The notes under the pieces: model-generated
Told to the model about the DNA's origin: nothing
What the model saw: only the letters and a program-made list of their open reading frames with translations
Database searches by the model: none
In this document: positions 23,487 through 43,613 of the stretch, one piece after another
Layout of the letters: each line of letters starts with the position of its first letter
How positions within the stretch are numbered: position 1 is the stretch's first letter
Translations under genes and position numbers: made by a program
Source of the DNA: Clostridiaceae bacterium
GTDB taxonomy: Bacteria; Bacillota; Clostridia; Acetivibrionales; DUMC01
Assembly (NCBI GenBank): GCA_012840075.1
Contig: DUMC01000146.1
Location: 1-45,257 of the forward strand
Length of the DNA: 45,257 nucleotides
Direction of reading: 5' to 3'

Positions 23487-23524
23487 GGGGTCAGGCTTGA
23501 ATTATTTAAGCCTGGCCTCTTTTT
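23487..23524 (+). terminator. Intrinsic terminator after fRMsr
   Basis: A 12-pair stem, GGGGTCAGGCTT (23487-23498) with AAGCCTGGCCTC (23508-23519), including two G-U pairs, with a 9-base loop and T run to 23524. Confidence 0.92.
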
Positions 23525-23628: not shown

Positions 23629-23657
23629 TTGAAGTGACGGTTAATTAGATATATAAT
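23629..23657 (+). promoter_or_regulatory. Predicted promoter of the carbohydrate locus
   Basis: TTGAAG (23629-23634), a 17-base spacer and TATAAT (23652-23657), 207 bases before the first gene. The long leader contains a 14-bp direct repeat AAATAAAAATTAAA at 23746-23759 and 23763-23776. Confidence 0.6.
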
Positions 23658-23835
23658 TTAAATAGTAAAAATATAAAAGTACTTCAAAAATATATCAACT
23701 GTAAAAAATTGAAAATAAAGATGATAATAAATGATTAAATAGATTAAATAAAAATTAAAATCAAATAAAAATTAAACAAAGCGTGCATAAAAAAACACAT
23801 ATATAAAGCACACAAAACACATAAAACAATTGAAA

Positions 23836-23859
23836 GGGGTGATTACCCGTTTAGGGTAA
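23836..23859 (+). promoter_or_regulatory. Alternative hairpins over the ribosome site of the isomerase gene
   Basis: ACCC at 23845-23848 can pair with GGGT at 23837-23840, which covers the Shine-Dalgarno-like AAAGGGGTG, or, extended to TTACCC (23843-23848), with GGGTAA (23854-23859), which leaves it free. The two pairings exclude each other and end five bases before ATG 23864. Confidence 0.45.
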
Positions 23860-23863
23860 GGTT

Positions 23864-24661
23864 ATGATTAAGCTTGGTGTCAATTCTGTTCTTTTCAAAG
23901 GTTATACTTTCAGAGAAGCGGCAGAGGCCATCAAAAAAGCAGGTTATGACGGACTTGAGATTTCTGCGATAAAAGGTATGTGTGAGCATTTGGATTTGGA
24001 CAATTGGAAAGCACAAAAAAATGAAATCAAGTCCATTATGGAAGAATTTAATCTTGAGATGCTTTCAGCTGAAGTAGCTTCTCTTGATGAAGAAAGGCTT
24101 ATGAAGGCTTTTGAAGCCGGAGCTGAAATAGGAATTCCGATAATAAATATAGGACCTGGCGGCAAATCCGATGATGAAGACAGCCTAAAAGAAAGTCTTG
24201 AAAAAATAGCAAAAATGAGTGAAAAAGCTTCCGAATTCGGTGTTATTTTATGTGTAAAAGCCCATGTGGGGGCTTCAATCTATAATACTCCGACAACGCT
24301 CAGAGCAATAGAATATATAAAAAGTGATAGTTTTGGCATTGATATGGATCCCAGCCACATATACCGTGCAGGCGAATTACCGGAAGAAGCTCTGCCTAAG
24401 GTTATACATAAGGTAAGACATATTCATATTCGCGATTGTAAAGGAAGAGGTCCCGGACCCGGTGAACCGGCACTTCAGGCATGTGGTAGAGGGGATATAA
24501 ATCTTTTCGGATATTTCAAAGCCATGGTGGAAGCAAAATATGAAGGACCGGTATGTCTTGAAGTAATAGGACCTCAACAGGATATGGTTTCAGCTTCAAT
24601 AATTGCTGCAGAAAGCTACGGGTATATGAATGCATGTCTTAAACTTCTCGGAGCAAGGTAA
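23864..24661 (+). CDS. Sugar phosphate isomerase/epimerase-like TIM-barrel protein
   Basis: A 265-residue protein of the xylose-isomerase-like TIM barrel (AP endonuclease 2) superfamily. Visible features are LGVNSVLFKGYTFREAAEAIKKAGYDGLEIS at the N-terminus, GIDMDPSHIYRAG (metal Asp and His near residues 163-168), VRHIHIRDCKG, and the late Glu in GPVCLEVIGPQ near 230. The set Glu/Asp/His/Glu would hold one divalent metal. Members epimerise keto-sugars (IolE/IolI, tagatose 3-epimerase) or, in C-glycoside pathways, remove aglycones from 3-keto-sugars. It is the first gene of the locus and lies near two Gfo/Idh/MocA genes, which supports a keto-sugar substrate. The exact reaction is unknown. Confidence 0.85.
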   Translation: MIKLGVNSVLFKGYTFREAAEAIKKAGYDGLEISAIKGMCEHLDLDNWKAQKNEIKSIMEEFNLEMLSAEVASLDEERLMKAFEAGAEIGIPIINIGPGGKSDDEDSLKESLEKIAKMSEKASEFGVILCVKAHVGASIYNTPTTLRAIEYIKSDSFGIDMDPSHIYRAGELPEEALPKVIHKVRHIHIRDCKGRGPGPGEPALQACGRGDINLFGYFKAMVEAKYEGPVCLEVIGPQQDMVSASIIAAESYGYMNACLKLLGAR

Positions 24662-24790
24662 AATGTTAACTCAAGATAAAATGTTTAATTCAAGATAAAG
24701 GCTTAATTAAGGATATATAAAGCCTGGATTAGCATTATATCATAGCCTGAATAATACTCAGATGATAACATTTAAAGGGAGGTTATCCAA

Positions 24791-26182
24791 ATGGTAAAGA
24801 AACCAAATTTATTGTTTTTCGGAATTGACAGCTTAAGAGCAGATCATATGAGCCTTTATGGATATAACCGTCTTACCACGCCGCACATAGACAAATATGC
24901 CGAGGGTGGTATAGTATTTGAATATTGCTTCAGTCCAAGCATACCAACTACACCCGGCTATGCAAGCATGTTTACCGGCAGGGATTGTTTTGGAACGAAC
25001 ATAGTGGCATTAAGACACAAAGGCGGATATCCGGAAGGAGTTAAAACACTTGCAGAAGTACTTAAAGAAAACGGATATAATACTACATGTATAGGTTTTG
25101 GAGGTAATCCTGCATCAAGAGGTTTTGACAAATATATTGAATATGAGGGATGGGGTTCCTGGGAAGCCGGACGTTCCCATAAAGCAGAGAATTTAAACAA
25201 GGTAGCTATTCCGGAGCTGGAGAGACTTGCAAAAGAAGATAAACCTTTCTTCCTGTTTATGCGTCATATGGATCCGCATTCACCTTACCTTCCACCGGAA
25301 CCGTTCCACCGAATATTTTACGGTGGCAATGAATTTGACCCTAATAATAAATCTCTTGAACCTGTTTACGCTTTTAAGCCTTTCAGAGATTATTTTTACA
25401 CTTGGTTCCCACCGGGATGCACGGATAAAGACTATATAATAGCACAATATGACGGTGCTGTTGCTTATATGGATGCTTGCATTCAGAATATTCTTACAAA
25501 ACTTGAAGCTTTAGGTTTGGAAGGTGAAACACTGGTTGTTATCACAGCCGACCATGGTGAAACCCTGTATGACCATGACTGTTATTTTGATCACCACGGA
25601 CTTTATGACTGCACCTTAAGAGTGCCTTTGGTATTCCGTTTTCCCGGAAAGCTTCCTGCGGGCAAAAGATATTCCGATTACTGTCAGCTCAAAGATATAA
25701 TGCCCACCATTCTTGAAATATTGGAGATAGATTCAGGACTTGAGTTCGACGGAAGAAGCCTTATGCCTTTAACAAGAGGTGAATATAGAGAACCGGAACC
25801 GGAGTTTTATATCACAGAGTGTACTTGGATGAGAAAACATGGATGGCGTACACCTGAATGGAAACTTATTCAGGCTTTGGAACCGGATTTTCATTTCAAA
25901 CCTGAAATTGAGCTTTACAACCTGATAAAGGATCCTGAAGAAAATAATAATGTAGCCGATAAAGAACCAGGTGTTGTAAAAATGCTTCTTGAGCGCATGC
26001 AGCAACATATTGCAAAACGTGAAAAAGAAGTAGGTAGGGTAAACCCCATATACACTAACCTGGACTGGCACGGAAAAGGCTGTGGACCGTTTAAGACGTC
26101 ACAGCAGGCTTATGATACATTACACATAGGTGATCCTGAAGCTGCTAGGAAGCTGCAGGCTCAATTGGATAAAAAGAAATAA
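24791..26182 (+). CDS. Sulfatase-superfamily hydrolase lacking the formylglycine Cys/Ser
   Basis: A 463-residue cytosolic protein (no signal peptide) of the sulfatase branch of the alkaline phosphatase superfamily. Metal-site segments are FFGIDSLRADHMSLYGY (D13), MRHMDPHSPYLPP and ITADHGETLYDHD, and the FTGR that follows the active-site helix is present (F61-R64). In true sulfatases the nucleophile motif is C/S-x-P-x-R; here positions 53-57 read T-T-P-G-Y. So the residue converted to formylglycine is Thr, and the Arg is Tyr. Thr is the nucleophile in several phosphodiesterases and phosphotransferases of this superfamily, so a phosphodiester or phosphonate substrate is at least as likely as a sulfate ester. 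AAAGGGAGG (24774-24782) precedes ATG 24791. It lies 129 bases after the isomerase gene, probably in the same operon. Confidence 0.85.
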   Translation: MVKKPNLLFFGIDSLRADHMSLYGYNRLTTPHIDKYAEGGIVFEYCFSPSIPTTPGYASMFTGRDCFGTNIVALRHKGGYPEGVKTLAEVLKENGYNTTCIGFGGNPASRGFDKYIEYEGWGSWEAGRSHKAENLNKVAIPELERLAKEDKPFFLFMRHMDPHSPYLPPEPFHRIFYGGNEFDPNNKSLEPVYAFKPFRDYFYTWFPPGCTDKDYIIAQYDGAVAYMDACIQNILTKLEALGLEGETLVVITADHGETLYDHDCYFDHHGLYDCTLRVPLVFRFPGKLPAGKRYSDYCQLKDIMPTILEILEIDSGLEFDGRSLMPLTRGEYREPEPEFYITECTWMRKHGWRTPEWKLIQALEPDFHFKPEIELYNLIKDPEENNNVADKEPGVVKMLLERMQQHIAKREKEVGRVNPIYTNLDWHGKGCGPFKTSQQAYDTLHIGDPEAARKLQAQLDKKK

Positions 26183-26258
26183 TATGAACCGGTAAAAATA
26201 AATAACCTTGACCGGATAAAAAAATAATATAATTTTACTAATTCGGGAGAAGATATAA

Positions 26259-27269
26259 ATGTTAAAAGTATGTGTAATTGGCATGGGTAATATCGGTAAT
26301 ATTCATGCTAGAGTATATAGTGAATATGACAAAGTCCGGCTTGCAGGAGTTTGCGATATAATTCCGGAAAGGGCTGAAAGAGCAGGTAAAAAATTTGGGG
26401 TTCCTTATTACTTCGATGCTGAAGAAATGCTCAGGGAAATTAAACCTGATATATGCAGTGTAACTACCGGCGGGTTTGAGTATTCCAGCGATCATTTTTT
26501 ACCGACAATCCAAGCATTAAACGCAGGTTGTCATGTATTATGTGAAAAGCCCATTTGCAATGATCTTGAAAAAGCTCAGATTATGGTAGATACTGCTAAA
26601 AAATTAAACAGGTGTTTTGGAATAAACTTGAACCACAGGTTTACTCCTGCAGCGCGACTTGTTAAGCAATGGCAGAATGAAGGGAAAATCGGCAACCTTC
26701 TGTTCATAAATATGGCTCTCTGGATCGGCAGGTTTGAACCTCATTTTGATTCCGAGTATTATCACCTTAAAGCTTTAAATCCTCACAGCGTAGATATTAT
26801 GCGGTATTTTGGAGGAGATATTGATACCGTACATTGTTTTGCTATGAAAGCTCCAGGCAGGGATATCTGGTCTACGGCTTCAATAAATGTTAAATTCAAA
26901 AACGGTGCAGTTGGGCATTTGACAAGTTCGTATGATATTAAGCGGGGGCATCCGATGGAGCGTTGTGAAATAGCCGGAACAAAGGGTAGAGCGGTACTTG
27001 AAGATATGTGGAGAGAAGCCGTCTTATATCCCGCAGATAGTTTTGTGAAAAAGGTATATACGAATCCTATATTTGGAGGTTTTACCGAATTTTATGATAC
27101 ATTCCGTGACAGGATAATACACTTTGTTGACCAGGTTGCAAGAGGAGACAGACCGGAAGATATTGACGGCTCAGGTGAGCAGGGACTTGAAGCAAGCCGA
27201 GTGATTCATGCGGCTATAGAGTCTTTAAAGACCGGACTTCCTGTCAAAGTTGAAACGATTAAAAAATAA
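26259..27269 (+). CDS. Gfo/Idh/MocA family oxidoreductase (first copy)
   Basis: A 336-residue NAD(P)-dependent oxidoreductase. The Rossmann motif is GMGNIG (8-13), the acidic ribose-binding Asp is in VCDI (31-34), and the catalytic-lysine motif E96-K-P98 is intact. H176 and D179 in NPHSVDIMRYFGG match the C-terminal His/Asp active-site pair. The family oxidises a sugar hydroxyl or reduces a keto-sugar; inositol and 3-keto-glucoside dehydrogenases belong here. It lies 76 bases after the sulfatase-like gene and just before the AraC regulator. It is clearly related to the second copy at 28408 but is shorter by 29 residues and differs through the C-terminal half. Confidence 0.92.
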   Translation: MLKVCVIGMGNIGNIHARVYSEYDKVRLAGVCDIIPERAERAGKKFGVPYYFDAEEMLREIKPDICSVTTGGFEYSSDHFLPTIQALNAGCHVLCEKPICNDLEKAQIMVDTAKKLNRCFGINLNHRFTPAARLVKQWQNEGKIGNLLFINMALWIGRFEPHFDSEYYHLKALNPHSVDIMRYFGGDIDTVHCFAMKAPGRDIWSTASINVKFKNGAVGHLTSSYDIKRGHPMERCEIAGTKGRAVLEDMWREAVLYPADSFVKKVYTNPIFGGFTEFYDTFRDRIIHFVDQVARGDRPEDIDGSGEQGLEASRVIHAAIESLKTGLPVKVETIKK

Positions 27270-27328
27270 TAAAGTAATTGAGAAATAAGCTGATAAGTTA
27301 AAATGATAGATAAACGGGGAAGGTATTG

Positions 27329-28210
27329 ATGGTATCTCAAGTAAATTATTTGGAAAGCAGAAATTTTTTTGAAAACAGAAATGTCCCAATACTGGTTATG
27401 GATACGGAGCACCATGGAAGAGTCGGAATGCACAGCCATGATTTCTACGAATTTGTATATATAGACAAGGGCTTTTCCATGCACTTCTGCGAAGGTGAAA
27501 CAACGGTACTTACATCCGGAGACTTATTTGCAATTAGACCCGGACAAGTACATTCATATACCAGTGCTCACCATACATTCTTATATAATTGCTTGTTTTC
27601 CATGGAAGCATTGGACAACACTGTAGTTGAAGATATTGTAAAACTTCCCGGTTTAAAACAGATCCTTGAACCCGTTGACACCAAATGGCAAAAGCTGCAC
27701 CTGGATTTTACTGAAAGAAGAGAGGTACTGATTTACCTGGAGAAAATGAAATGGGAGCAAATTAACAGGGGAATTGGCTGGGAGTTGAATATGAAAAGCT
27801 TATTGATAAGTTTTTTGGTTCTGTATTCACGGTTGTACTTAAGTCACTATGAAAACATTAGCCCTAGCAGTAAGGCGCAGATACTCCACATACACAAAGC
27901 GCTCAAGTATATTGAAGATAATTATGAAAAGGATTTCTTGCTCAAGGACATGGCAAAATCAATTAATCTTTCCCCTGATTATATTTCGCGCCAATTTAGG
28001 ATTGCCATAGGTTTGTCGCCCATAGAGTATCTTAGAAATTTTAGGATAGCAAAAGCAATGGAAAAGCTTAAAACTACTGATTTGCCGATTTCAGAAATTG
28101 CTAAGAGTACGGGTTTCAGTGATATAAGCAATTTTTCACGACAATTTAAGCAGGTAGTAGGAACTTCCCCTTCAGCTTTCCGTAGAAACTATGACGAAAC
28201 GAAAACATGA
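27329..28210 (+). CDS. AraC family transcriptional regulator
   Basis: A 293-residue AraC regulator. The cupin part has H-x-H-like GRVGMHSHDFYEFVYIDKG and SGDLFAIRPGQVHSY, and the C-terminus holds the double helix-turn-helix, FLLKDMAKSINLSPDYISRQFR and ISEIAKSTGFSDISNFSRQFKQVVGTSPSAFRRN. ATG 27329 is used (a TTG directly before it is also in frame); GGGGAAGG lies at 27317-27323. It sits between two related oxidoreductase genes and is the only regulator within the 24-37 kb locus, so it is the likely local activator, responding to the sugar or its keto form. Confidence 0.9.
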   Translation: MVSQVNYLESRNFFENRNVPILVMDTEHHGRVGMHSHDFYEFVYIDKGFSMHFCEGETTVLTSGDLFAIRPGQVHSYTSAHHTFLYNCLFSMEALDNTVVEDIVKLPGLKQILEPVDTKWQKLHLDFTERREVLIYLEKMKWEQINRGIGWELNMKSLLISFLVLYSRLYLSHYENISPSSKAQILHIHKALKYIEDNYEKDFLLKDMAKSINLSPDYISRQFRIAIGLSPIEYLRNFRIAKAMEKLKTTDLPISEIAKSTGFSDISNFSRQFKQVVGTSPSAFRRNYDETKT

Positions 28211-28407
28211 TGAAAAGCTTAGTTTAGAAAGTATAACTTGATTATGATCATGTAAGTTTAGCGAAGCTTAAACAGAACAACAATTAGTAAGTAATAAGGC
28301 AAATAAATTTTTAATGATTAAAAGTAAACAAATTTTAGTAATTATTGAAACGGTAATAAAAGCAAATTAATAAGAAAAACAAATAAAAGAAAGGTGGTTA
28401 AGAGAAC
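28211..28407 (+). other. Spacer before the second oxidoreductase
   Basis: 197 bases, AT-rich. A small hairpin GTTTAGC-GAA-GC(T)TAAAC lies near 28256-28273. AAAGGTGG near 28391-28398 is the ribosome site of the next gene. A promoter under AraC control may lie here but I cannot define one. Confidence 0.35.
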
Positions 28408-29505
28408 ATGGCTTTAAAAGTAGGCATTGTAGGAATGGGAGGTATCGGAAATCTGCATGCGGAGTGTTATAAAAAAGATCCTTTGGCTGAACTCGTTGCC
28501 GTATGCGATATTATAAAAGAAAAAGCGGATGCAGCTGCCGAAAGGCACGGAGTAAAAGCTTATTACAGTCTTAAGGAAATGCTAAAAGCACATCCGGAGA
28601 TAGATATAATTAGCGTGACAACCAGCGGTTATGAAAACGGAAGCTGGCATTATGAACCTGTTATGGAAGCAATTGATGCAGGAAAACATGTATTGGTTGA
28701 AAAGCCTATATCAAATGACATAGTGGAAGCCAGAGAAATGGTGAGTTTTGCCGCTAAGAAAGATGTGTACCTGGGATGTAATTTGAACCATTATTTTACC
28801 ATTCCTGCTGATAAGGCAAAACAGTTAATAAAAGAAGGCAAAATAGGTGAACCTGTATATTGCATTCACAAAGTCGGATTTAACGGCGGAGAAGCAATTT
28901 ATGGCGGAGTGGGAAGTCCAAGATGGCAGCGTCCTTATTCACATGTAAAAGCATTCCTTGCTCATCCTTTTAGTGTAATGCGATATTTCTGCGGAGATAT
29001 AACCCATGTACAAGCTTTCTTGAATAAGCCGGGTGTTAGAAAAAGCGCAGATGATTTAATGCTATCAATCAACAGCATACATGTACGGTTTGAAAACGGC
29101 AGTGTTGGATATTTACTGTCCCAGCGCGGAGATGCGATGTTCGGTCTTGGCGGATGGTGGAGTTTTGAAATGGCAGGAACTAAAGGAACATTCTGCATAG
29201 AAAATTGTGTTGAGCAGCTCACTTTCTGGGAAGCACCTAAAGCCGGTGAAAAAACTCCTCCCGAACCTGTAGTAATAAACACAGGTATTAAAGATTTTAA
29301 TTCAACTTTCCCTACAAGAATACATGCTTTTTTAGAAGATGTAACAAACGGAGTGCCAAAGGAGTATTTAAGAGCTTCCGGTCGTGATGCACTTGCAACG
29401 CTTGAATACACCTTTGCAGTAATCACTTCGTATGAAGAAGGCGGAGCGCTTGTTCGTCCGCATAGCTTGCCGAACTTGCACGGACATCCTTCTTATGTAT
29501 GGTAA
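28408..29505 (+). CDS. Gfo/Idh/MocA family oxidoreductase (second copy)
   Basis: A 365-residue NAD(P)-dependent oxidoreductase with GMGGIG (9-14), VCDI (32-35), and E98-K-P100. The sequence NLNHYFTIPADKAKQLIKEGKIGEPVY matches the corresponding NLNHRFTPAARLVKQWQNEGKIG of the first copy, showing an old duplication. The C-terminal domain is longer and carries the His of LAHPFSVMRYFCGD. Two such enzymes in one locus often act in sequence, one oxidising and one reducing, or on two positions of a sugar. A terminator follows, closing this transcription unit. Confidence 0.92.
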   Translation: MALKVGIVGMGGIGNLHAECYKKDPLAELVAVCDIIKEKADAAAERHGVKAYYSLKEMLKAHPEIDIISVTTSGYENGSWHYEPVMEAIDAGKHVLVEKPISNDIVEAREMVSFAAKKDVYLGCNLNHYFTIPADKAKQLIKEGKIGEPVYCIHKVGFNGGEAIYGGVGSPRWQRPYSHVKAFLAHPFSVMRYFCGDITHVQAFLNKPGVRKSADDLMLSINSIHVRFENGSVGYLLSQRGDAMFGLGGWWSFEMAGTKGTFCIENCVEQLTFWEAPKAGEKTPPEPVVINTGIKDFNSTFPTRIHAFLEDVTNGVPKEYLRASGRDALATLEYTFAVITSYEEGGALVRPHSLPNLHGHPSYVW

Positions 29506-29513
29506 TAAGAGGA

Positions 29514-29563
29514 AAGGGGTATTCCCTCAAAATTTAGGGGCTTTTTGTCCGGGTATACCCCTT
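29514..29563 (+). terminator. Terminator after the second oxidoreductase
   Basis: AAGGGGTAT (29514-29522) pairs with ATACCCCTT (29555-29563). A competing inner hairpin, CCCT (29524-29527) with AGGG (29536-29539), is followed by GCTTTTT and looks like a short terminator. The two forms cannot coexist fully, so partial read-through to the ABC importer genes is possible. Confidence 0.6.
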
Positions 29564-29643
29564 ATTTACGTTAAGTTATTTTCTAATAAAATTGTTTCCA
29601 AATAATTACATTATAAATTCCTTTTGTGGAGGAAATAGGGGAC

Positions 29644-30957
29644 ATGAAAAAATTTGTTACGATTCTTTTAATATGTACCATGTTATTAGGAATATGCGCA
29701 TCATACACATCATGCTCAAGTAGCGATAAAAATTCGGAATCTTCCGATAAATCTTCCACTTTGCAAGAAGATCCAACTTCTAAAGGAGAAGTGGATAAAA
29801 CAGTCACTCTTACATTTTTGCGAATTGGCAATGATGCTCCGGAAGCAAATTATTGGAAGTCGCTTATTAAGAAGTTTGAGGAAGAAAACAAAAATATTAA
29901 AATTCAATATGATGACGCAGCCATAGGTGAGCCTATGGAAACAAAACTTAATACACTATTTGCAGGTGGTGCGGGACCGGATATTATCGGGCACGGAATA
30001 CTTTCCGTCGCAAATAGGGTTGAAGCCGGGCACTATGTACCAATAACCGAATATTTTAACCAATGGGAAGGCAAGGATGATATAATGGAAAGCGTTCTGG
30101 CAAACGGCACGTATAAGAGTGAGGTATACGGCCTTGCATATTCTACAACACCGTATATATTTGCATATAGGAAAGACATGTTTGCCGAAGCAGGACTTGA
30201 CCCTGAAAAACCGCCCCAAACCTGGGATGAACTAAGAGAATATGCACGACTTCTGACAAAAAAGGAAGGAGACAGGATTGTTCGTGCAGGATTTGCTTTC
30301 CCGATGGCTGCCGGAAATTTCGTAGAATTTGATGTTTTTGTTTTTGGTAACGGTGGCAGGTTTTACGATGATTCAAATATGCCCACCATTAACACACCTG
30401 ACAAAGTTGAAGTTTTTGAATTCCTCAAGAGCTTTATCGACGAGGTGAATATACCATATAATAATAATGAGGTTAATCCCTTCATTAAAGGAAATGCCGC
30501 AATGACTCTCATTAACAACGTTGCTTTACGTCCGATGCTGGATGATCCTGAATTAAAAGATAAGGTAGGTGTTGCGGTACCACCGTACAACAAGGTAAAA
30601 GCAACATTTTCAGGGTGTAACATGTTATTTATCGGCAGAGATTGCAAGAATAAAGATGAAGCATGGAAATTCATAGAAGCTGCGTTGTCAAAAGAACAAG
30701 TACTCGAACGCAGTAAGCAGCTTAATATTCCGGTTACAAGAAAATCCCTTTTGGAGGAATTTTCAAAACTTGACCCGTATAATGCAGTAAGGGCTGAATG
30801 CGTCCAGGTAGGAATAGGAATGCCTCGTACCGTATGGTCACCAAGATTCCAAACCATAAGAAATGAAATGGTACAGAAAGTACTGTATTCTAAAATGTCA
30901 ATAGAAGAAGCTTTAAATGAGGCTCAAAACGAACTGATGAAAGAAATAAATCAGTAA
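29644..30957 (+). CDS. ABC sugar transporter, substrate-binding lipoprotein (family 1)
   Basis: A 437-residue extracellular solute-binding protein. Residues 1-23 form a lipoprotein signal (KKFVTILLICTMLLGICASYTS) with a probable lipid-attached C24 before a Ser/Asp/Lys-rich linker. The mature part begins VTLTFLRIGNDAPEANYWKSLIKKFEEENKNIKI, typical of MalE/UgpB-type binders, and contains the GPDIIG and GLAYSTTPYIFAYRKDMFAEAGLDPEKPPQTWDEL segments. ATG 29644 is preceded by GGAGGA at 29628-29633; a GTG at 29626 lies within that site. With the two permeases that follow it forms a complete CUT1-type importer; no ATPase is encoded nearby, so a shared MsmK-type ATPase is likely. An oligosaccharide ligand is expected. 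Confidence 0.93.
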   Translation: MKKFVTILLICTMLLGICASYTSCSSSDKNSESSDKSSTLQEDPTSKGEVDKTVTLTFLRIGNDAPEANYWKSLIKKFEEENKNIKIQYDDAAIGEPMETKLNTLFAGGAGPDIIGHGILSVANRVEAGHYVPITEYFNQWEGKDDIMESVLANGTYKSEVYGLAYSTTPYIFAYRKDMFAEAGLDPEKPPQTWDELREYARLLTKKEGDRIVRAGFAFPMAAGNFVEFDVFVFGNGGRFYDDSNMPTINTPDKVEVFEFLKSFIDEVNIPYNNNEVNPFIKGNAAMTLINNVALRPMLDDPELKDKVGVAVPPYNKVKATFSGCNMLFIGRDCKNKDEAWKFIEAALSKEQVLERSKQLNIPVTRKSLLEEFSKLDPYNAVRAECVQVGIGMPRTVWSPRFQTIRNEMVQKVLYSKMSIEEALNEAQNELMKEINQ

Positions 30958-30978
30958 GTAAAACCCGGGAGGGAGGTT

Positions 30979-31003
30979 AGACAAGGGGACGGTTCTTTTG
31001 TCT
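30979..31003 (+). other. GGGGAC hairpin between binding protein and permease genes
   Basis: AGACAA (30979-30984) pairs with TTGTCT (30998-31003) around GGGGACGGTTCTT. It lies in the 71-base gap. The motif GGGGACGGTTCTTTTGTC is one I recall as a frequent short dispersed repeat in clostridial genomes. It may lower permease expression relative to the binding protein. Confidence 0.45.
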
Positions 31004-31028
31004 TTCCATCCAAAAAAGGAAGCAAAGG

Positions 31029-31976
31029 ATGATAAGAAGTATGAAATATGAAGTTAAAGAAATAAAGAAACCGTTCCCTTACTTTCTTACTAAAAGTCCG
31101 AATATGAGTAAGAGAAGAATAAGTAGAGATGACATTTCAGCGTATATAATGATAACGCCCTTTTTTATCTTTTTTGTTTTGTTTGTAATAGTGCCCATCG
31201 GTTATAACTTTGTTAACAGTTTTACAAATTATAACCTTGGGAAGACAAGGGATTTTATCGGACTGAAAAACTATATAAATCTATTCTCTGATAAGAACTT
31301 TTTACAATCCATGTACAATACTTTAATATACGCGGCATTTAGTGTCGTTCCGTTAATGGTTTTAGGATTAATTTCCGCAGTTGCATTAAATGGTCGCTCT
31401 AAAATACTGCATGTGACCAGGGCTCTTTTTATTTTTCCTTACATAACATCAATGGTCGCTGTTTCCATGATTTGGCTTTATCTATATGAACCGTCAACAG
31501 GTGTTTTTAATAAAATCCTATTAGGATTGGGACTCAAACCTCAAAATTGGCTGTTTGACGAGAAGCTGGCTCTTTCCTGCTTAATTGTAATGAATATATG
31601 GAAAAATATAGGCTATGTGATGATTATTTATCTTGCAGGGCTTCAAAGTATACCGCAGGAATTATACGAAGCAGGTAAAGTTGACGGAGCTTCTGATTTT
31701 AAAATGTTTTACAAAATAACTATACCAATGTTATCGCCAATTTCGTTCTTTATCTTTGTAACAACCATGATAGAAGGTTTTAAAACTTTTGAACAAGTGA
31801 GAATAATGACAGGAGGAGGACCTGTCAATAGTACAACTACAATTGTTCACCAGATATATATCCGTGCTTTTAGTGAATATAAGATGGGATATGCCTCAGC
31901 AATGTCCATCATACTTCTTATAATTATATTTGTAATTACAATGATTAATTTGAAGATCGGAAAAGGGAAGGAATGA
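31029..31976 (+). CDS. ABC sugar transporter permease (MalF/UgpA type)
   Basis: A 315-residue inner-membrane permease with six predicted helices. The ATPase-contact loop EAGKVDGASDFKMFYKITIPMLSP lies near residues 212-235, where A-x-x-DGA and the following pattern are standard for the family. A 35-residue charged N-terminus precedes the first helix. ATG 31029 follows AAGGAAGC; ATG 31041 with AAAGGATG is a fair alternative. It overlaps the next permease gene by ATGA. Confidence 0.92.
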   Translation: MIRSMKYEVKEIKKPFPYFLTKSPNMSKRRISRDDISAYIMITPFFIFFVLFVIVPIGYNFVNSFTNYNLGKTRDFIGLKNYINLFSDKNFLQSMYNTLIYAAFSVVPLMVLGLISAVALNGRSKILHVTRALFIFPYITSMVAVSMIWLYLYEPSTGVFNKILLGLGLKPQNWLFDEKLALSCLIVMNIWKNIGYVMIIYLAGLQSIPQELYEAGKVDGASDFKMFYKITIPMLSPISFFIFVTTMIEGFKTFEQVRIMTGGGPVNSTTTIVHQIYIRAFSEYKMGYASAMSIILLIIIFVITMINLKIGKGKE

Positions 31977-32953
31977 AAGAGGAAGTGCTGATTCGAGGTA
32001 AAATCCGAAACCGGGGTAAAATCCAGGACCGAGAAAGAATATTAAATCAAGAAAAAGTTCGTGAGCTTAAAGCGCTTGAAATTAATTTCTGCAGTATAAA
32101 CGGGTACAAACTACTTACAGGAACTATAGCAGTAATATTAGTAGTTCTTACGGCTTTCCCTTTTTTGATAATGCTTTCAGTATCCTTGCAAACAATGAAA
32201 GAAATATATGCACCGGAATTAGTTTTCATACCGGAAAAAGCCCAATTTGTAAATTACGTAAATGCCATGAAAAACGGAAATTGGGGCAGATACATGTTTA
32301 ATAGCATATATATTACAACAATAGTAGTTATAATAAGCCTTTTCATAAACTCAATGACAGGTTATGTTTTTGCTCGAATAAATTTTAAAGGCAAAAATTT
32401 ATTGTTTATTCTTTTGTTAGTAGGTATGATGATTCCTCCTCAAGTTACCATGGTCCCTCTTTTCATAATGATGAGAAGGTTTCCGCTTGCGGGAGGCAAT
32501 AATATATGGGGGGCTGGAGGTACAGGGTTAATAAACACATATACAGGATTAATTTTGCCATTTATTGCCGGATCTTTCGGCGTGTTTCTTTGCAGGCAGT
32601 TTTATATGACTTTTCCTAAAGATCTTGATAATTCTGCACTGATTGACGGATGCAGCAGGTTTAAAATATTTGTCAGAATCTATTTACCTCTGTCAAAACC
32701 GGTACTGGCTTCTCTCGGAATACTTAAATTTACGGGTACTTGGAATGAGTATACCTGGCCTTTAATAATGACAAATTCGGATTCTATGAAAACCGTTCAG
32801 ATAGCTCTTACAATGTTTAGGGATGAAGCGGAAGTTATCTGGAACCAGCTTATGGCTGCAACAATAATTTCTTCCGCTATAATATATATCTTATTTTTAT
32901 TGCTACAAAAGTATTTTGTGGCAGGAATTCTTGCAGGAAGCCTAAAAGAATAA
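31973..32953 (+). CDS. ABC sugar transporter permease (MalG/UgpE type)
   Basis: A 326-residue partner permease with six helices and the contact loop NSALIDGCSRFKIFVRIYLPLSKP near residue 215-238. The N-terminal 40 residues are unusually long and charged, with a small internal repeat (RGKIRNRGKIQDRERI) coming from a duplicated GGTAAAATCC segment. ATG 31973 overlaps the preceding stop. The importer unit ends here; a weak terminator and a new promoter follow. Confidence 0.92.
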   Translation: MKEEVLIRGKIRNRGKIQDRERILNQEKVRELKALEINFCSINGYKLLTGTIAVILVVLTAFPFLIMLSVSLQTMKEIYAPELVFIPEKAQFVNYVNAMKNGNWGRYMFNSIYITTIVVIISLFINSMTGYVFARINFKGKNLLFILLLVGMMIPPQVTMVPLFIMMRRFPLAGGNNIWGAGGTGLINTYTGLILPFIAGSFGVFLCRQFYMTFPKDLDNSALIDGCSRFKIFVRIYLPLSKPVLASLGILKFTGTWNEYTWPLIMTNSDSMKTVQIALTMFRDEAEVIWNQLMAATIISSAIIYILFLLLQKYFVAGILAGSLKE

Positions 32954-32983
32954 GGAACGATTTTTTTGATTCCGTCTTTTTTT
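32954..32983 (+). terminator. Weak terminator after the permease genes
   Basis: GGAA (32954-32957) pairs with TTCC (32970-32973), and a T run lies at 32977-32983. The stem is short. Confidence 0.4.
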
Positions 32984-33001
32984 ATTTCTAAATATAATTA
33001 A

Positions 33002-33030
33002 TTGAAAGCATATCAGAGGTTTGATATAAT
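33002..33030 (+). promoter_or_regulatory. Predicted promoter of the M20 amidohydrolase unit
   Basis: TTGAAA (33002-33007), a 17-base spacer and TATAAT (33025-33030), 87 bases before the start. Three CAATTG motifs follow, at 33032-33037, 33051-33056 (inside the palindrome TTCAATTGAA) and 33076-33081; they could be operator half-sites. Confidence 0.65.
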
Positions 33031-33116
33031 CCAATTGTAGCTCCTTTATTCAATTGAAAACAAAGCTTCATTTTTCAATTGGAAATTAAACATCCAAAAC
33101 GAAAGGTGTGATCTGT

Positions 33117-34490
33117 ATGTCGGAATATAAATATCTTTTTGACGCCGTAGAAAAACACAGAACTCTTATTTTTGAGGCAGAAAAATATATCTGGGAAAAT
33201 CCTGAAACAGGCTACCGTGAGTGGAAAACCAGTACATATCTAGAGAAAAAATTCGAGAAGCTTGGTTATAAACTCTTTAGAGCAGAAAATATACCAGGCT
33301 TTTATACTATTATTGACACAGGAAGACCCGGACCTTGTGTGCTTGTAATGGCGGAACTTGATTCCCTTATATGCTTTGAACATCCTGACGCGGATCCACA
33401 AACGGGTGCAGTACATGCATGCGGTCACCATGCCCAGTGTGCAGCCTTGCTTGGTCTTGCAGCAGCACTAAAAGAAGAAGGTGTGTTAGACGGACTTTCA
33501 GGAAGAATTAAGCTTTGTGCAGTCCCTGCGGAGGAATTAATTGAAACCGAATACCGTGAAACTCTCAGACAAAAAGGGATTATACGGTATTATGGTGGAA
33601 AGGTGGAGTTTCTTTACCGTGGATATTTTGATGATGTAGACATGGCTTTTATGTTCCATACAACCGGTGGTAAACACAGATTTTATGCAACAAGAGGGTC
33701 TAACGGATGCATTGTAAAGAATATAAACTATAAAGGAGTTGCTGCACATGCCGGAGGATCTCCTCACGAAGGTATAAATGCTTTGTATGCTGCTACCCTT
33801 GGTATACATGCTATTAATGCTCTTAGAGAGACATTCAAAGATTCGGATCATATAAGAGTGCACCCGATTGTAACTAAGGGCGGAACGGCTGTTAATGCGA
33901 TTCCAAGTGATGTAAAAATGGAGAGTTATGTTAGAGGTGCGGATATGAAAGTTATAACGGAAGTGAACAAAAAGATAAACCGCGCTCTCGCAGCAAGTGC
34001 AGCAGCTATTGGCGCGAATGTGATACTAAGTGATCGCCCTGGATACACACCCCTAATTAATGATAAAAATTTACTTAGAATTGCAGAAAGAGCCATGAAG
34101 GAAATTGCACCTGCAGAACATGTAGCCATAACTGATAATTGGGGTACGGGTTGTACCGATATGGGAGATATTTCTGCCGTCATGCCTGCAATACATCCTT
34201 ATGCAGGCGGTGCGACAGGTACGGGACATGGAAGTGATTATCGTATAGAAGACAAGGAAAATGCTTGTGTGAATTCAGCAAAATGCCAGCTATTAATGCT
34301 TAATATGCTGTTATCAAATGATGCTGCGGAAGCAAAAAAGGTTATTGAGGAGAAAAATCTGCGTTACCAATCAAAGGAAGAGTATTTTAAAGCAATAGAT
34401 TCCATTATACAGGATAAAACTGCAGTAATTTATAATGAGGACGGTACTGTGACGTTAGATTTCGCCAAGGAAATTACCGTTAAGGAGTAG
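33117..34490 (+). CDS. M20 family metallo-amidohydrolase (HipO/AbgB-like)
   Basis: A 457-residue M20D-type hydrolase of N-acyl amino compounds. Metal ligands by comparison with plant IAA-amino acid hydrolases and AbgB are C102 and H104 (HACGH), E139 (PAEE), H181 (FMFHTTGG) and H371 (GTGHGSDY); all are present. H211 (GVAAHAGGSPHEGINA) is the dimer-domain His. The segment after H104 is unusual: the family's GHDxH is GHHAQ here, so the Asp and second His are replaced. ATG 33117 is chosen with GAAAGGTG at 33101-33108; a GTG at 33108 lies within the site. In this locus it may remove an N-acyl group from an amino sugar or release an amino acid from a glycoconjugate. It heads a unit with the AKR-like and GH127 genes. 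Confidence 0.87.
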   Translation: MSEYKYLFDAVEKHRTLIFEAEKYIWENPETGYREWKTSTYLEKKFEKLGYKLFRAENIPGFYTIIDTGRPGPCVLVMAELDSLICFEHPDADPQTGAVHACGHHAQCAALLGLAAALKEEGVLDGLSGRIKLCAVPAEELIETEYRETLRQKGIIRYYGGKVEFLYRGYFDDVDMAFMFHTTGGKHRFYATRGSNGCIVKNINYKGVAAHAGGSPHEGINALYAATLGIHAINALRETFKDSDHIRVHPIVTKGGTAVNAIPSDVKMESYVRGADMKVITEVNKKINRALAASAAAIGANVILSDRPGYTPLINDKNLLRIAERAMKEIAPAEHVAITDNWGTGCTDMGDISAVMPAIHPYAGGATGTGHGSDYRIEDKENACVNSAKCQLLMLNMLLSNDAAEAKKVIEEKNLRYQSKEEYFKAIDSIIQDKTAVIYNEDGTVTLDFAKEITVKE

Positions 34491-34557
34491 AAATACTTAA
34501 CATAAAGAAAAAAAGAAAAATTAGATTAAGATGTTAATATAGGAGGGCTATATTAAA

Positions 34558-35403
34558 ATGCATAAATTTCCTCGAACCAATATTGAAAATATTTCTCTTT
34601 CAAGAATGATAATCGGAACAAACTGGATATTAGGATACAGTCATACAAGCCCATCGGCAGATAGGTTCATAAAGCACTGCAATAGGTCACCTGAAGCTAT
34701 AGCAGACATAATAGAAGTATTTTTGAAAGCAGATATTGATACAATTCTTGGACCTTTGTCCAGTAACATGCACCTGCTTGACGGCATAAAAATGGCAGAA
34801 GACCGCACAGGAAAGAGTGTTATAAAGATTGATACTCCGATAATAAATGTGGATGATAATGAAAATGCCAGAAGAGAAGCGGAAAATACCATCAAATTAA
34901 GCAGAAAATGTGGAGCGGCATTATGCCTTCCTCACCACAGCAGCGTGGAACAGTTGGTAAACAAGAATAAAAAAACCATTGACAGATTGCCTGATTATCT
35001 TGCTATGATTCGTGAAAATGATATGATACCGGGATTATCAGCACACATGCCGGAACTGGTAGTTTATTCCGATCTTAATAATTATGACGTGCAAACCTAC
35101 ATACAGATTTACAATTGCATTGGTTTCTTAATGCAGGTGGAAATTGAGTACATTCATAAGATAATATGGACAGCCAAAAAACCGGTAATAACAATAAAAC
35201 CTATGGCTGCAGGCCGTGTTAGTCCATTTGTTGGTTTGACATTTGTATGGCATACAATTCGTCCCTGTGATATGGTTAGTGTAGGATGTCTTACTCCGGA
35301 AGAAGCTGCAGAAGACATAGAAATATCAATGGCTGCATTGGAACATCGTCCGCCTGTTTTAGAGGGGCGTAGCAGTCCTAATAAAACAGCTATTATGAAG
35401 TAA
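34558..35403 (+). CDS. Uncharacterised TIM-barrel protein, aldo/keto-reductase-like
   Basis: A 281-residue protein that I cannot assign to a named family. The C-terminal part, VITIKPMAAGRVSPFVGLTFVW...CDMVSVGCLTPEEAAEDIEISMAALE, reads like the last strands and helix of an aldo/keto reductase (nicotinamide-cofactor phosphate region), and the opening, ISLSRMIIGTNWILGYSH, like its first strand. However the usual catalytic segment (D-x-A-x-x-Y-G) is replaced by DIDTILGPLSSN, with no Tyr, so ordinary reductase activity is doubtful. TAGGAGGG precedes ATG 34558. It lies 67 bases after the M20 gene and 39 before the GH127 gene, so it is almost certainly part of the same pathway. Confidence 0.6.
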   Translation: MHKFPRTNIENISLSRMIIGTNWILGYSHTSPSADRFIKHCNRSPEAIADIIEVFLKADIDTILGPLSSNMHLLDGIKMAEDRTGKSVIKIDTPIINVDDNENARREAENTIKLSRKCGAALCLPHHSSVEQLVNKNKKTIDRLPDYLAMIRENDMIPGLSAHMPELVVYSDLNNYDVQTYIQIYNCIGFLMQVEIEYIHKIIWTAKKPVITIKPMAAGRVSPFVGLTFVWHTIRPCDMVSVGCLTPEEAAEDIEISMAALEHRPPVLEGRSSPNKTAIMK

Positions 35404-35442
35404 CAAACAAGCCGTTTATCCTTGAAAGAAAGGTGAGCAAAA

Positions 35443-37365
35443 ATGGACAATGTTAATGCTCATGATATATCTAGCTTAGATAAAGGAATTGAAAACAATA
35501 AACTGCTGGAACCGGTTTTTAGACCTTTATCAATCAAGGAGATCCAGCCTGAAGGTTGGTTGCTAAACCAATTAAAGATTCAAGCCAAAGGTCTCTCTGG
35601 CAATCTTGATAAATTCTGGCCGGATATAAAAGACAGCAAATGGATTGGTGGAAATGCAGAAGGATGGGAAAGACTTCCTTATTGGCTCGATGGATTTATA
35701 CCATTGGCATGGTTGTTAAATGATGAAGATATGAAATCCAGGGCTAAATATTATATTAATTATATTATTGACCATCAAAGGGAAGACGGTTGGATATGCC
35801 CGGATGATGAATTTGCAAAGAAGGATTTGTGGGCGTTTTTTCTTATATTAAAAGTTTTGGTGCTGTATCATGATGCTACGGAAGATGAGCGAATAGAAGG
35901 GGTAATTAGAAAGGCACTTTTATATCTTGACAGAAATATTGACAGACAAACACTCTATGGATGGGCTCACGCACGTTGGTTTGAGTGCATGATCCCTATG
36001 TGGTGGCTGTATGAACGTATAAGAGAAGAATGGATATTAGAACTTGCCGCCAAAATCCACGCACAGGGATTTGATTGGATATCTTTATACAAGCACTGGC
36101 CGTATAAAAAACCAATTGAGAAAAAACGCTGGAGTTATATGAGCCACGTAGTAAATAATGCAATGATGCTCAAATCCGGTCCTTTATTATGGCGTATGAC
36201 CGGTTCAAAAGAACAACTTGAAAGTGCTGAACACATGGTAGATTTATTAGATAAATACCATGGCATGGTAACCGGAGTTTTCACCGGAGATGAATGCTTG
36301 GCCGGGAAAAGTCCCATCCAGGGTACCGAGTTGTGTGCTGTAGTAGAATATATGTATTCTCTTGAGCATTTAATATCTATTACAGATAGAGCTCATTGGG
36401 GAGACAGGTTGGAAAAAATAGCATACAATGCCCTGCCTGCCACATTTAGCCCGGATATGTGGACGCACCAGTATGACCAGCAGGTAAACCAGATTGAGTG
36501 TAGTCGGCAGGATAATCCGGTATTCATGACAAATGGCGGGGAATCAAATATTTTTGGACTTGAGCCAAACTATGGCTGCTGTACTGCCAATTTAAGCCAA
36601 GGATGGCCTAAGTTTGCCTTGTCAACATTTATGAAGAGCAATGACGGACTTGTTGCGGCAGTTTACGCACCTTGCAGCATTAATACAAATATAGACGATA
36701 CAAAAGTATCAGTCAGACTAATTACAGAATATCCATTCCGGGACACTTTGAACTTTACTGTTACTACAGAAAAAGAAACTGAATTTTCATTGTGGTTAAG
36801 AATTCCGGCGTGGACTGACAGGGCTTATCTGGAGATAGATGGAAAGCAGTTGGATATATGTGCCCATGAAGGATATTATTGTCTGAGAAGAAAATGGTCA
36901 GGCGAAACGTCTTTTACTCTCCGTTTTCCAATGATAATTAATATTGAACCTCGTCCCAATAACCTTTATGCAGTTACTCGAGGACCACTGGTATATTCAC
37001 TGGCTATAGGCGAAAAATGGGTGAGAATAAATGAGGATATTCCTGGACGGGAACCACCTCATTGCGATTACGAAGTATATCCTGTTACGCCGTGGAATTA
37101 TGGGTTGTGCATTGATATAGATAATCCGGAAAAAAGTATTGTTTTTGAAGAACATGAAGTTGGAGATTGTCCTTTTTCTCCTGAAGGAGCGCCTGTGGTA
37201 GCTTATGTGTACGGAAAAAAGATTGACTGGTCCAAGGAGAACGGGGTAGCTTTGCCGTATCCCGAGATGAAATGGATATCAGATGAAAAGGAAAAGCTAA
37301 AACTCATACCGTATGGATGCACCAACTTGCGCATGACTGAAATGCCGATTTTTAATGAAAAGTAA
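35443..37365 (+). CDS. GH127-type hydrolase (beta-L-arabinofuranosidase family, DUF1680)
   Basis: A 640-residue cytosolic (alpha/alpha)6-barrel glycosidase without a signal peptide. Typical segments are FWPDIKDSKWIGGNAEGWERLPYWLDGFIPLAWLL (58-92), GTELCAVVEYMYSLEHL (294-310, with E296 at the proposed acid/base position), and NYGCCTANLSQGWPKF (376-391). The pair C379-C380 matches the zinc-bound Cys pair, one of which is the catalytic nucleophile in HypBA1. The upstream Glu/Cys zinc ligands are probably E352-C353, but their spacing differs from the E-x-C I recall, so the exact subfamily (GH127, GH146 or other DUF1680) is open. Two beta-sandwich domains follow. AAAGGTGAG precedes ATG 35443. It would cleave an imported oligosaccharide. 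Confidence 0.85.
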   Translation: MDNVNAHDISSLDKGIENNKLLEPVFRPLSIKEIQPEGWLLNQLKIQAKGLSGNLDKFWPDIKDSKWIGGNAEGWERLPYWLDGFIPLAWLLNDEDMKSRAKYYINYIIDHQREDGWICPDDEFAKKDLWAFFLILKVLVLYHDATEDERIEGVIRKALLYLDRNIDRQTLYGWAHARWFECMIPMWWLYERIREEWILELAAKIHAQGFDWISLYKHWPYKKPIEKKRWSYMSHVVNNAMMLKSGPLLWRMTGSKEQLESAEHMVDLLDKYHGMVTGVFTGDECLAGKSPIQGTELCAVVEYMYSLEHLISITDRAHWGDRLEKIAYNALPATFSPDMWTHQYDQQVNQIECSRQDNPVFMTNGGESNIFGLEPNYGCCTANLSQGWPKFALSTFMKSNDGLVAAVYAPCSINTNIDDTKVSVRLITEYPFRDTLNFTVTTEKETEFSLWLRIPAWTDRAYLEIDGKQLDICAHEGYYCLRRKWSGETSFTLRFPMIINIEPRPNNLYAVTRGPLVYSLAIGEKWVRINEDIPGREPPHCDYEVYPVTPWNYGLCIDIDNPEKSIVFEEHEVGDCPFSPEGAPVVAYVYGKKIDWSKENGVALPYPEMKWISDEKEKLKLIPYGCTNLRMTEMPIFNEK

Positions 37366-37407: not shown

Positions 37408-38101
37408 TATAACCAATGCTCCTACTCTTGAATCCGGACGTACTGCATTTGCTACACATGACATTACCATGGCTGATAATTGGAATTATTCCAATACTCT
37501 CGAAGGTGTAGAATTTGAACGAGTTATCATTAATCCTGATGCTCCGGGATTCCGGGATTTTTGGGGCAATAACTTGGTGTGTATACCTCACTCTTCCAAG
37601 CATCCCGATCGTGTTATTCGTTGGGTAGATTGGCTTTATGGAAATAAGGATAACTACATGCTGCTGTTATATGGTATAGAAGGTGTACATTGGGAATACA
37701 TGGAAGGAGATAGTGAAAGAATACAGGTTCCAGCAGGGAAAGATCCCAATGACTATCCTATGTGGCACATGTGGCAATGGGCACAAGGAGTACTTGATCC
37801 TTTTAGACCGGCTATGAAAGATGATACAATTGCACTTCTCAAGAAGTTCCGTGATATTAATACACCTGTTATAGAGTCTCCTACCTTGGGATTTTATGCT
37901 GATTTGAAGCCTGTTGAGGAAGAATGGGATCTTATGCAAGAGGTGTGGAGAAAATATGGTGTGCCTTTACTTCATGGGCGCGTACCGATAGAAGGCAATT
38001 ATGAAAAACTGCTGGAAGAAATGAACAAGGCCGGTGCTGATAAATTCCTTGCTGAAATGTAAAGACAATACGATACTTGGCGTGCTAAGAAGGGCAAATA
38101 G
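37400..38101 (+). pseudogene. LplA-type sugar-binding protein, 3' fragment with extra stop codon
   Basis: The C-terminal 230 or so codons of a family 1 (LplA/DUF3502-type) solute-binding protein. Recognisable coding sequence starts near NAPTLESGRTAFATHDIT (about 37414) right after an in-frame TAA (37398-37400), with no signal peptide, start codon or ribosome site; the first half of the gene is gone. The remainder includes RVIRWVDWLYGNKDNYMLLLYGIEGVHW and the C-terminal VEEEWDLMQEVWRKYGVPLLHGRV. TAA at 38060-38062 interrupts it, but the frame goes on with R-Q-Y-D-T-W-R-A-K-K-G-K to TAG 38099-38101, the normal ending of this family, so CAA to TAA is the simplest change. The longest ATG frame starts at 37469, but I do not think a working protein is made. 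It was once the binding protein for the LplB/LplC permeases downstream. Confidence 0.8.
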
Positions 38102-43547: not shown

Positions 43548-43583
43548 TTGCCACATCTCCTTTTCTAATTTATTCATATAATA

Positions 43584-43613
43584 ATTATACAATTTTTAGC
43601 TCAATGGATTCAA
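43584..43613 (-). promoter_or_regulatory. Predicted promoter of the ASRT-family gene
   Basis: On the minus strand TTGAAT (43608-43613), an 18-base spacer and TATAAT (43584-43589) lie about 37 bases before ATG 43547. Confidence 0.6.

Follow-up and report, generated by a model that had tools for sequence, protein, structure and literature searches.

The 45,257 nt of contig DUMC01000146.1 (assembly GCA_012840075.1, Clostridiaceae bacterium), here called the window, were analysed with a focus on the locus at positions 23629–37365. This locus encodes a TIM barrel protein (APE2), a relative of the sulfatases with threonine at the formylglycine position (SULF), two Gfo/Idh/MocA oxidoreductases (GFO1 and GFO2) and an ATP-binding cassette (ABC) importer. 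APE2, SULF and oxidoreductases of two different slots travel together across phyla, and the ABC importer accompanies them in the lineage of the window. With a probability of roughly 0.45, the cassette encodes a cytosolic pathway of the oxidise-eliminate-(hydrate)-reduce type, comparable to those for levoglucosan and for C- and O-glycosides, to which SULF would add a non-formylglycine esterase. The chemistry would be of a known kind, with a sulfatase-like enzyme added to it. A preliminary description of the window had proposed a pathway of ten genes for this locus, of which the core and the chemistry hold, whereas the genes for an M20 amidohydrolase, a protein resembling aldo-keto reductases (AKR-like) and a GH127 glycosidase are not part of the conserved set.

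A conserved cassette with two oxidoreductase slots

The four core genes are encoded on the + strand. APE2, a putative keto-sugar beta-eliminase/dehydratase of family PF01261 (23864..24661; AP_endonuc_2, 86.9 bits), is followed by SULF (24791..26182; Sulfatase, PF00884, 164.3 bits), GFO1 (26259..27269; GFO_IDH_MocA, PF01408, 91.9 bits) and GFO2 (28408..29505; PF01408, 95.7 bits).

Relatives were counted in two samples. The class survey comprised 391 genomes, with cut-offs of E ≤ 1e-60 for SULF and E ≤ 1e-50 for APE2, and the window's genome is counted in both. For a wider scan, contigs were searched with the SULF alignment; at least 580 stretches encode a relative, and the best 80 (67–80% identity) were used. 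Together with 20 loci from the class search these form a set of 100 loci, or 94 after removal of six duplicates with a SULF identical to that of another locus (L112, L114, L117, L119, L132 and L158). Counts over 91 loci exclude three loci without a called SULF open reading frame (ORF; L140, L170 and L175), which are included in counts over 94. Positions of APE2 and GFO genes were counted by tblastn, other neighbours as clusters of ORFs. The 80 scan loci were taken by top score and many of them come from Paenibacillus; the neighbour fractions given below are therefore not unbiased. The alignments comprise 97 rows for SULF and 84 for APE2, with duplicates kept in both.

Orthologues of SULF were found in 20 of the 391 class genomes (63–80% identity) and those of APE2 in 19 (59–75%), all within the 20 that carry SULF. 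Without the window's own genome the overlap is 18, which corresponds to p = 4e-30. Both genes are adjacent on one contig in 17 of the 19 genomes and lie on separate contigs in the other two (G069 and G084). In the sole genome with SULF and without APE2 (G105), SULF is located at a contig end. Judged by their record titles, the scan loci span Bacillota (Paenibacillus, Cohnella, Lederbergia, Neobacillus and Clostridiales), Planctomycetota, Lentisphaerae, Verrucomicrobia, Armatimonadota, Chloroflexi and Spirochaetes. On the same strand, APE2 (at least 50% identity) precedes SULF by no more than 2.5 kb in 86 of the 89 loci with sufficient room and is missing in L115, L159 and L177; the distance between the two is at most 200 bp in 68 of the 89. 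Downstream, SULF is followed by a GFO gene with at least 38% identity to GFO1 in 77 of 84 loci. In the family relatives G046 and G047, the entire order of APE2, SULF, GFO1, AraC, GFO2, substrate-binding protein and permeases is conserved at 66–90% identity. Based on these co-occurrence and synteny counts, the two oxidoreductases, the barrel and the Thr-type sulfatase relative, which the preliminary description had grouped together, form a true conserved unit.

The AraC regulator is found at the same place in L094 (70% identity) and L095 (66%). Homologues of the substrate-binding protein (at least 35% identity, within 9 kb) are restricted to L094, L095 and L143 among the 94 loci. Regulators and permeases nevertheless recur as clusters: AraC-type clusters occur in 34 and 14 of the 100 loci and permease clusters in 8 to 15. 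A tally of 97 non-core neighbours, covering the non-Bacillales loci, yielded no recurring hydrolase that would name the substrate.

A tree of 151 GFO proteins was divided into four clades (GFO1, GFO2, GFOA and GFOB), which were delimited from this same tree after inspection and assigned to slot X (GFO2 and GFOB) or slot Y (GFO1 and GFOA). An enzyme of slot X is paired with one of slot Y in 57 of the 58 loci with two GFO genes. In 10,000 shuffles, such pairs numbered 29.2 on average and 43 of 58 at most, and no shuffle reached 57. Removal of duplicates leaves the pair in 53 of 54 loci. All four cross combinations occur, and the exception (L177) has two GFOA proteins. Since the pairing is kept in nearly all two-GFO loci, the pathway seems to need oxidoreductases with two distinct tasks. 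In many loci a single GFO gene was detected (only GFO1 in 20 of 100), partly as a result of contig ends and ORF calling, and a further GFO family (K13) was found in 12 of the 91 loci.

Barrel residues and the proposed keto-sugar pathway

Residues K132, H134, D162, H188 and E233 of APE2 are invariant in all 84 rows. The O-glycoside beta-eliminase AtOGE is described as binding its metal through His132, Asp163, His189 and, weakly, Glu233, with His134 as the catalytic residue (PMC10628242). The C-glycoside enzymes are described with Glu at the first ligand place and the same catalytic His (PMC10628242; PMC8563793). In residue order and spacing, APE2 thus follows the eliminases, except that Lys occupies the place of the first ligand. 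The oxidise-eliminate-reduce route suggested earlier for the locus agrees with this comparison (AtOGE residues as given in PMC10628242), and the residue pattern fits a putative role of APE2 in the beta-elimination of a 3-keto-glycoside. In a profile search with GFO2, the C-glycoside oxidase DgpA was among three matches up to 1e-20.

From the observed gene set, slots and residues, we infer the direction of the pathway, the class of substrate and the type of ester. An imported glycoside would be oxidised to a keto-sugar by the enzyme of one slot, at a guess GFO2/GFOB. APE2 would then act in a metal-dependent manner: His134 would abstract the proton adjacent to the keto group, and the substituent would be eliminated. 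The product may be hydrated by a second PF01261 barrel where one is encoded (23 of the 91 loci), or else by APE2 or an enzyme encoded elsewhere, and the enzyme of the other slot would reduce the hydrated product. SULF would cleave an ester carried by the substrate or by the released part, using Thr53 and a metal held by D13, D254 and H255. The accessory barrel of the 23 loci (C7; 112.4 bits to PF01261 for a representative) keeps residues E157, D187, H212 and E252 and could be the hydratase.

The levoglucosan pathway is described as proceeding by oxidation, elimination, hydration and reduction, with two Gfo/Idh/MocA enzymes, two PF01261 proteins and an ABC importer (PMC7676230, PMC10066097). 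The LgdA-LgdB1-LgdB2-LgdC system of Bacillus smithii shares with the locus two Gfo/Idh/MocA enzymes, a PF01261 barrel and an ABC importer. It differs in having two barrels instead of one, and the main text of both papers mentions no sulfatase (PMC7676230, PMC10066097), whereas the cassette has SULF. In addition, the scores of GFO1 (59.0 bits) and GFO2 (67.7 bits) are below the cut-off of the LgdA equivalog NF052479 (650 bits). The remark in the preliminary description that no described system with this gene set is known is therefore too strong, since two GFO enzymes, PF01261 barrels and an ABC importer are described for levoglucosan, there without mention of a sulfatase-fold enzyme (PMC7676230). 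A description of the set as such was not found among the titles and abstract openings listed in searches of the open-licence literature.

The AtOGE operon of Agrobacterium and DgpA with DgpB-C, as described, combine oxidoreductases with a barrel that requires Mn and catalyses the beta-elimination of 3-keto-glycosides (PMC10628242, PMC8563793). APE2 resembles these barrels in the catalytic His and the D/H/E pattern and differs from them in Lys as the first ligand, while SULF is added in the cassette. A small beta subunit of the DgpB-C type was not found among spare + strand ORFs of at least 120 amino acids at 23.6–37.4 kb, the sizes scanned. The route through a DUF1080 3-keto-glycoside hydrolase (described in PMC9007349) was also considered; the window ORFs scanned gave no such Pfam match.

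Several observations weigh against the proposed pathway. Of the 60 loci that extend 4 kb to either side, all have at least one GFO gene and 48 have at least two. The best NCBIfam match of GFO1 is UDP-GlcNAc 3-dehydrogenase (120.9 bits, cut-off 450), and its second profile match is myo-inositol 2-dehydrogenase (3cea). The first ligand of the barrel is Lys132 in APE2, as opposed to His in AtOGE and Glu in the C-glycoside enzymes. AtOGE is not named among the 10 profile matches of APE2 up to 1e-5 (its presence in the database is unchecked), so that the likeness between the two is one of residue order and spacing. No second PF01261 barrel was found inside 23629–37365 by the Pfam scan. The model of SULF has a mean pLDDT of 70.9 and a low-confidence active site, with residues 49–54 and 256–276 below 50. 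The sulfate-activation genes near many cassettes, which are presented in the next section, lie outside the explanation given by a keto-sugar scheme. Finally, a dehydration of an inosose-like ring would fit as well, because IolE has a His-rich stretch at the position of Lys132 in the profile alignment.

The last point leads to a variant of cyclitol catabolism, in which GFO1/GFO2 would make an inosose, APE2 would dehydrate it like IolE and SULF would remove a phosphate, for example that of an inositol phosphate. Profile matches to IolI and IolE for APE2 and to 3cea for GFO1 are in line with this, as are the NCBIfam matches of inositol 2-dehydrogenase to GFO1 (118.6 bits) and GFO2 (100.3 bits) and of IolE to APE2 (28.7 bits). 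These scores are far below the cut-offs of the IolG and IolE equivalogs (355 for TIGR04380 and 290 for TIGR04379), and no iol-type family is present among the 25 commonest (113 matched) of the 97 non-core neighbours in non-Bacillales loci. The classical inositol route moreover works without a second GFO enzyme, so that the second slot would not be needed. We regard this variant as quite improbable.

The ycjQRS genes of Escherichia coli raise the question of an epimerisation instead of an elimination. They are described as encoding the same kinds of proteins, namely two dehydrogenases (YcjS and YcjQ), an epimerase (YcjR) and an ABC importer, along with phosphorylases and a beta-phosphoglucomutase where the cassette has a sulfatase-fold enzyme (PMC11543891). 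A pathway of this type would oxidise, epimerise and reduce a rare-sugar glycoside to a common one, after SULF had stripped off the ester. The combination of both slots and one barrel, seen in 53 of the 54 distinct loci with two GFO genes, would suit it. Epimerases of this barrel fold, including YcjR, use the Glu found in IolI as one of a pair. This paired metal site is not kept in APE2, which has the invariant Lys132 (84 of 84 rows) at the position of the first Glu in IolI; E157, D187, H212 and E252 are kept by the accessory barrel and not by APE2. Epimerisation is therefore considered unlikely, and the oxidise-eliminate-reduce pathway is preferred.

The Thr-type sulfatase relative and nearby sulfate-activation genes

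SULF shares its fold and the PF00884 domain with the S1 formylglycine sulfatases, with a structural match to 9fo1 (Foldseek E 3.5e-24, Z 26.6). The roles of its alignment columns are presumably those of the S1 family. T53, Y57, F103, H163, D254, H255 and D267 are present in 97 of 97 rows and D13 in 96. The threonine noted in the preliminary description is thus confirmed as T53. In all 97 rows, T53 and Y57 depart from the formylglycine motif [CS]-x-P-x-R, and the R, K and K of the canonical sulfate pocket are replaced by Y57, F103 and D267. In the account of the SulfAtlas authors, Cys or Ser of this motif becomes formylglycine, its formation from Thr was never shown, and Thr proteins of the TXNXE type are not to be counted as functional sulfatases without experiment (PMC5066984). 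A role as an ordinary sulfatase was rejected on the basis of Thr53 and the replaced R/K/K. The removal of sulfate, one of two options given earlier for the ester, is unlikely for SULF.

Thr-type relatives that act on phosphate esters are found in the same superfamily. By analogy, SULF would more probably cleave a phosphate ester, either a monoester or a diester, than a sulfate ester. Enzymes of the LtaS/EptA type were absent among the matches listed in the fold searches with SULF (50 rows of S1 sulfatases and near relatives), and no signal peptide was recognised by eye.

Two further sulfatase relatives lie no more than 9 kb from SULF: S2, a sulfatase of the Cys type, is encoded there in 33 of the 91 loci, and S3, a second Thr-type protein, in 27. 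The first four site columns (nucleophile, R, K and K) are occupied by T, H, N and D in S3 (27 rows). In S2 (36 rows), the nucleophile is C in 35 and S in one, followed by R in 36, K in 34 and K in 36. Judging from these nucleophile and pocket residues, S2 is a candidate formylglycine sulfatase, whereas SULF and S3 are not.

Over the same distance and in the same 91 loci, adenosine 5'-phosphosulfate (APS) kinase was found in 29 loci, ATP sulfurylase in 6, CysNC in 2 and a PF13469 sulfotransferase in 22. At least one such activation or transfer gene is present in 50 of the 91 loci and in 34 of the 45 with 9 kb on both sides. These counts are of sequence clusters, the families of which were verified on representatives: APS kinase in L160 (245.6 bits, cut-off 138.7) and L187 (200.0, cut-off 21.1), ATP sulfurylase in L186 (466.7, cut-off 322.95), CysNC in L118 (951, cut-off 715) and, by its APS kinase and GTPase domains, in L136, and the sulfotransferase in 4 of 22 (48.7–60.6, cut-off 27). 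The sulfotransferase is encoded between SULF and GFO1 in loci of the Planctomycetes-Verrucomicrobia-Chlamydiae (PVC) group, of Chloroflexi and of some class relatives. In many Bacillales loci, the APS kinase lies 5' of S3. The APS kinase and S3 share 22 loci, the sulfotransferase and S3 none. An operon of a Gfo enzyme, a sulfatase and an APS kinase or sulfotransferase was not found among the titles listed in searches of the open-licence literature. Activation genes, a sulfotransferase and a sulfate/citrate-type permease were observed beside the cassette of other phyla in loci L112–L191 (for example L186:13575–17145, L136:16153–18141, L154:2361–3170).

These genes allow a reading in which a sulfated sugar or cyclitol would be produced or modified by the cassette, with 3'-phosphoadenosine 5'-phosphosulfate (PAPS), supplied by APS kinase and ATP sulfurylase, serving the sulfotransferase, S2 acting as turnover sulfatase and the host of the window holding only the post-import part. 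Apart from the frequency of the activation or transfer genes and of S2, this is favoured by two complete Paenibacillus chromosomes, each with two full-length APS kinases, one of them in the cassette, and one weak partial match. In contrast, the window's genome showed no match to APS kinase (control detected in 11 of 14), and neither this genome nor the two Paenibacillus genomes showed one to PF13469 or PF00685 (controls detected in only 4 of 14 and 3 of 14). The window's genome has 17 sulfatase-family matches; being 97% complete in 193 contigs, it may have a gap. Since PAPS genes were not detected in this genome although it has the core, the core seems able to do without PAPS at least in some hosts. 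SULF lacks the sulfate-binding residues, and the recurring AraC-type and permease clusters speak for catabolism. Taken together, a sulfate-linked function of this kind appears rather unlikely.

Sulfation may also be coupled to the barrel reaction itself. A sugar hydroxyl sulfated from PAPS would then be the leaving group or a tag, APE2 would eliminate it, and SULF and S3 would constitute a novel enzyme class that transfers ester or sulfuryl groups without formylglycine. This leans on the sulfotransferase in PVC and Chloroflexi loci and on the APS kinase with S3 in Bacillales, and we consider it very doubtful. The keto-sugar pathway with SULF as an esterase remains our preferred reading.

Flanking genes, transcription units and implications

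The locus consists of 11 intact + strand genes, ten for enzymes and transport and one for the AraC regulator. The ORF listing of the window and the Pfam matches confirmed that they are contiguous and belong to the families named in the preliminary description. The gene for the AraC-family regulator, which is likely local (27326..28210; HTH_18 84.1 bits, AraC_binding 48.4), separates GFO1 from GFO2. GFO2 is followed by the substrate-binding protein of the ABC importer, a lineage-specific partner (29626..30957; SBP_bac_1 132.4 bits), and by permeases 1 (31029..31976; BPD_transp_1 67.6 bits) and 2 (31973..32953; BPD_transp_1 76.7 bits). The remaining genes encode the M20 amidohydrolase (33108..34490, with an ATG at 33117; Peptidase_M20 42.7 bits, TIGR01891 205.4 with a cut-off of 153.75), the AKR-like barrel without a Pfam family (34558..35403) and the GH127-like glycosidase (35443..37365; middle domain PF20736 62.8 bits, catalytic domain PF07944 47.5).

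Homologues of the last three proteins were counted over entire loci by tblastn (E ≤ 1e-10). M20 and AKR-like homologues were found in none of the 94 cassette loci and GH127 in one (L094, a family relative), where it shows 66% identity by blastp and lies about 10 kb from the cassette. The downstream reach is at least 7.5 kb in 61 and at least 9.3 kb in 52 of the 94 loci, and the distances in the window itself are 6.9, 8.4 and 9.3 kb; about one third to one half of the loci could thus not show these genes. Based on these counts, the three genes are not retained as parts of the pathway.

For the protein encoded at 34558, neither Pfam nor NCBIfam gave a match at E values up to 0.001, and the only weaker one was PGK at E 0.026. 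Its model (pLDDT 88.4) has 4exa as the best Foldseek match (TM 0.61), and by this model the protein is predicted to fold like an aldo-keto reductase barrel, in agreement with its earlier assignment as AKR-like. Homologues exist in 8 of 58 order genomes and 22 of the 391 class genomes, the own genome and partial matches included. The gene was rejected as a marker of the pathway, since SULF is absent from the neighbourhoods of the 30 homologue stretches examined; the expected co-occurrence of 34558, as a neighbour, with homologues of the genes at 24791, 26259, 28408 and 33117 was not observed. At the level of whole genomes, the AKR-like gene co-occurs with SULF more often than expected (10 of 19 genomes, 1.0 expected) without being linked to it. 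Searched against plasmids by tblastn, the protein gave no match. Examples of the AKR-like gene are found in L003 and L066, and a distant paralogue in the window's genome (C112) lies near another GFO/AP_endonuc-like locus.

A strong 15-pair terminator-like hairpin is located at 23487–23519, 3' of the upstream gene. Promoter-like sites were found at 23629 (10/12) and, 5' of the M20 gene, at 33002 (11/12, the best of the region). The region has 18 terminator-like sites (shuffled mean 10.9, sd 4.1) and 63 promoter-like sites (shuffled mean 52.0, sd 7.5). For the separate transcription units proposed earlier, the hairpin and the sites agree with a break before 33108, although the count of promoter-like sites is near the shuffled level. 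The M20, AKR-like and GH127 genes are probably local accessories in a second transcription unit.

Downstream of the locus, at 37469–38062, a substrate-binding protein of the lipoprotein type is represented by its C-terminal DUF3502 domain alone, and a lone permease is found nearby at 40738; the two are probably a decayed importer. A gene of the ASRT family (Anabaena sensory rhodopsin transducer, PF07100) is located at 43173–43592 on the − strand. In 6 of the 91 loci a homologue lies no more than 9 kb from the cassette, and one is also found, farther away, in L094 (78% identity). Within the same distance, a PhyH-family dioxygenase (PF05721) was found in 13 of the 91 loci, for example at L135:16954–17859 and L173:5760–6599 (137.9 bits to PF05721 for the latter); all 14 loci with the PhyH cluster are Bacillales by record title. 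In Lederbergia citrea, a fused class II aldolase/short-chain dehydrogenase is encoded 3' of the cassette (L149:12585–14654). We take this fusion to resemble that of L-rhamnose catabolism, and by analogy it hints at a deoxyhexose as a possible product.

The set is kept at 53–90% identity over several phyla, including strains of Paenibacillus, Cohnella and Lederbergia, which points to a common natural substrate. It places sulfate activation beside the proposed keto-sugar elimination in culturable soil bacteria. Through the suggested role of SULF, a function could be assigned to those Thr-type proteins that are labelled as sulfatases without having formylglycine chemistry.

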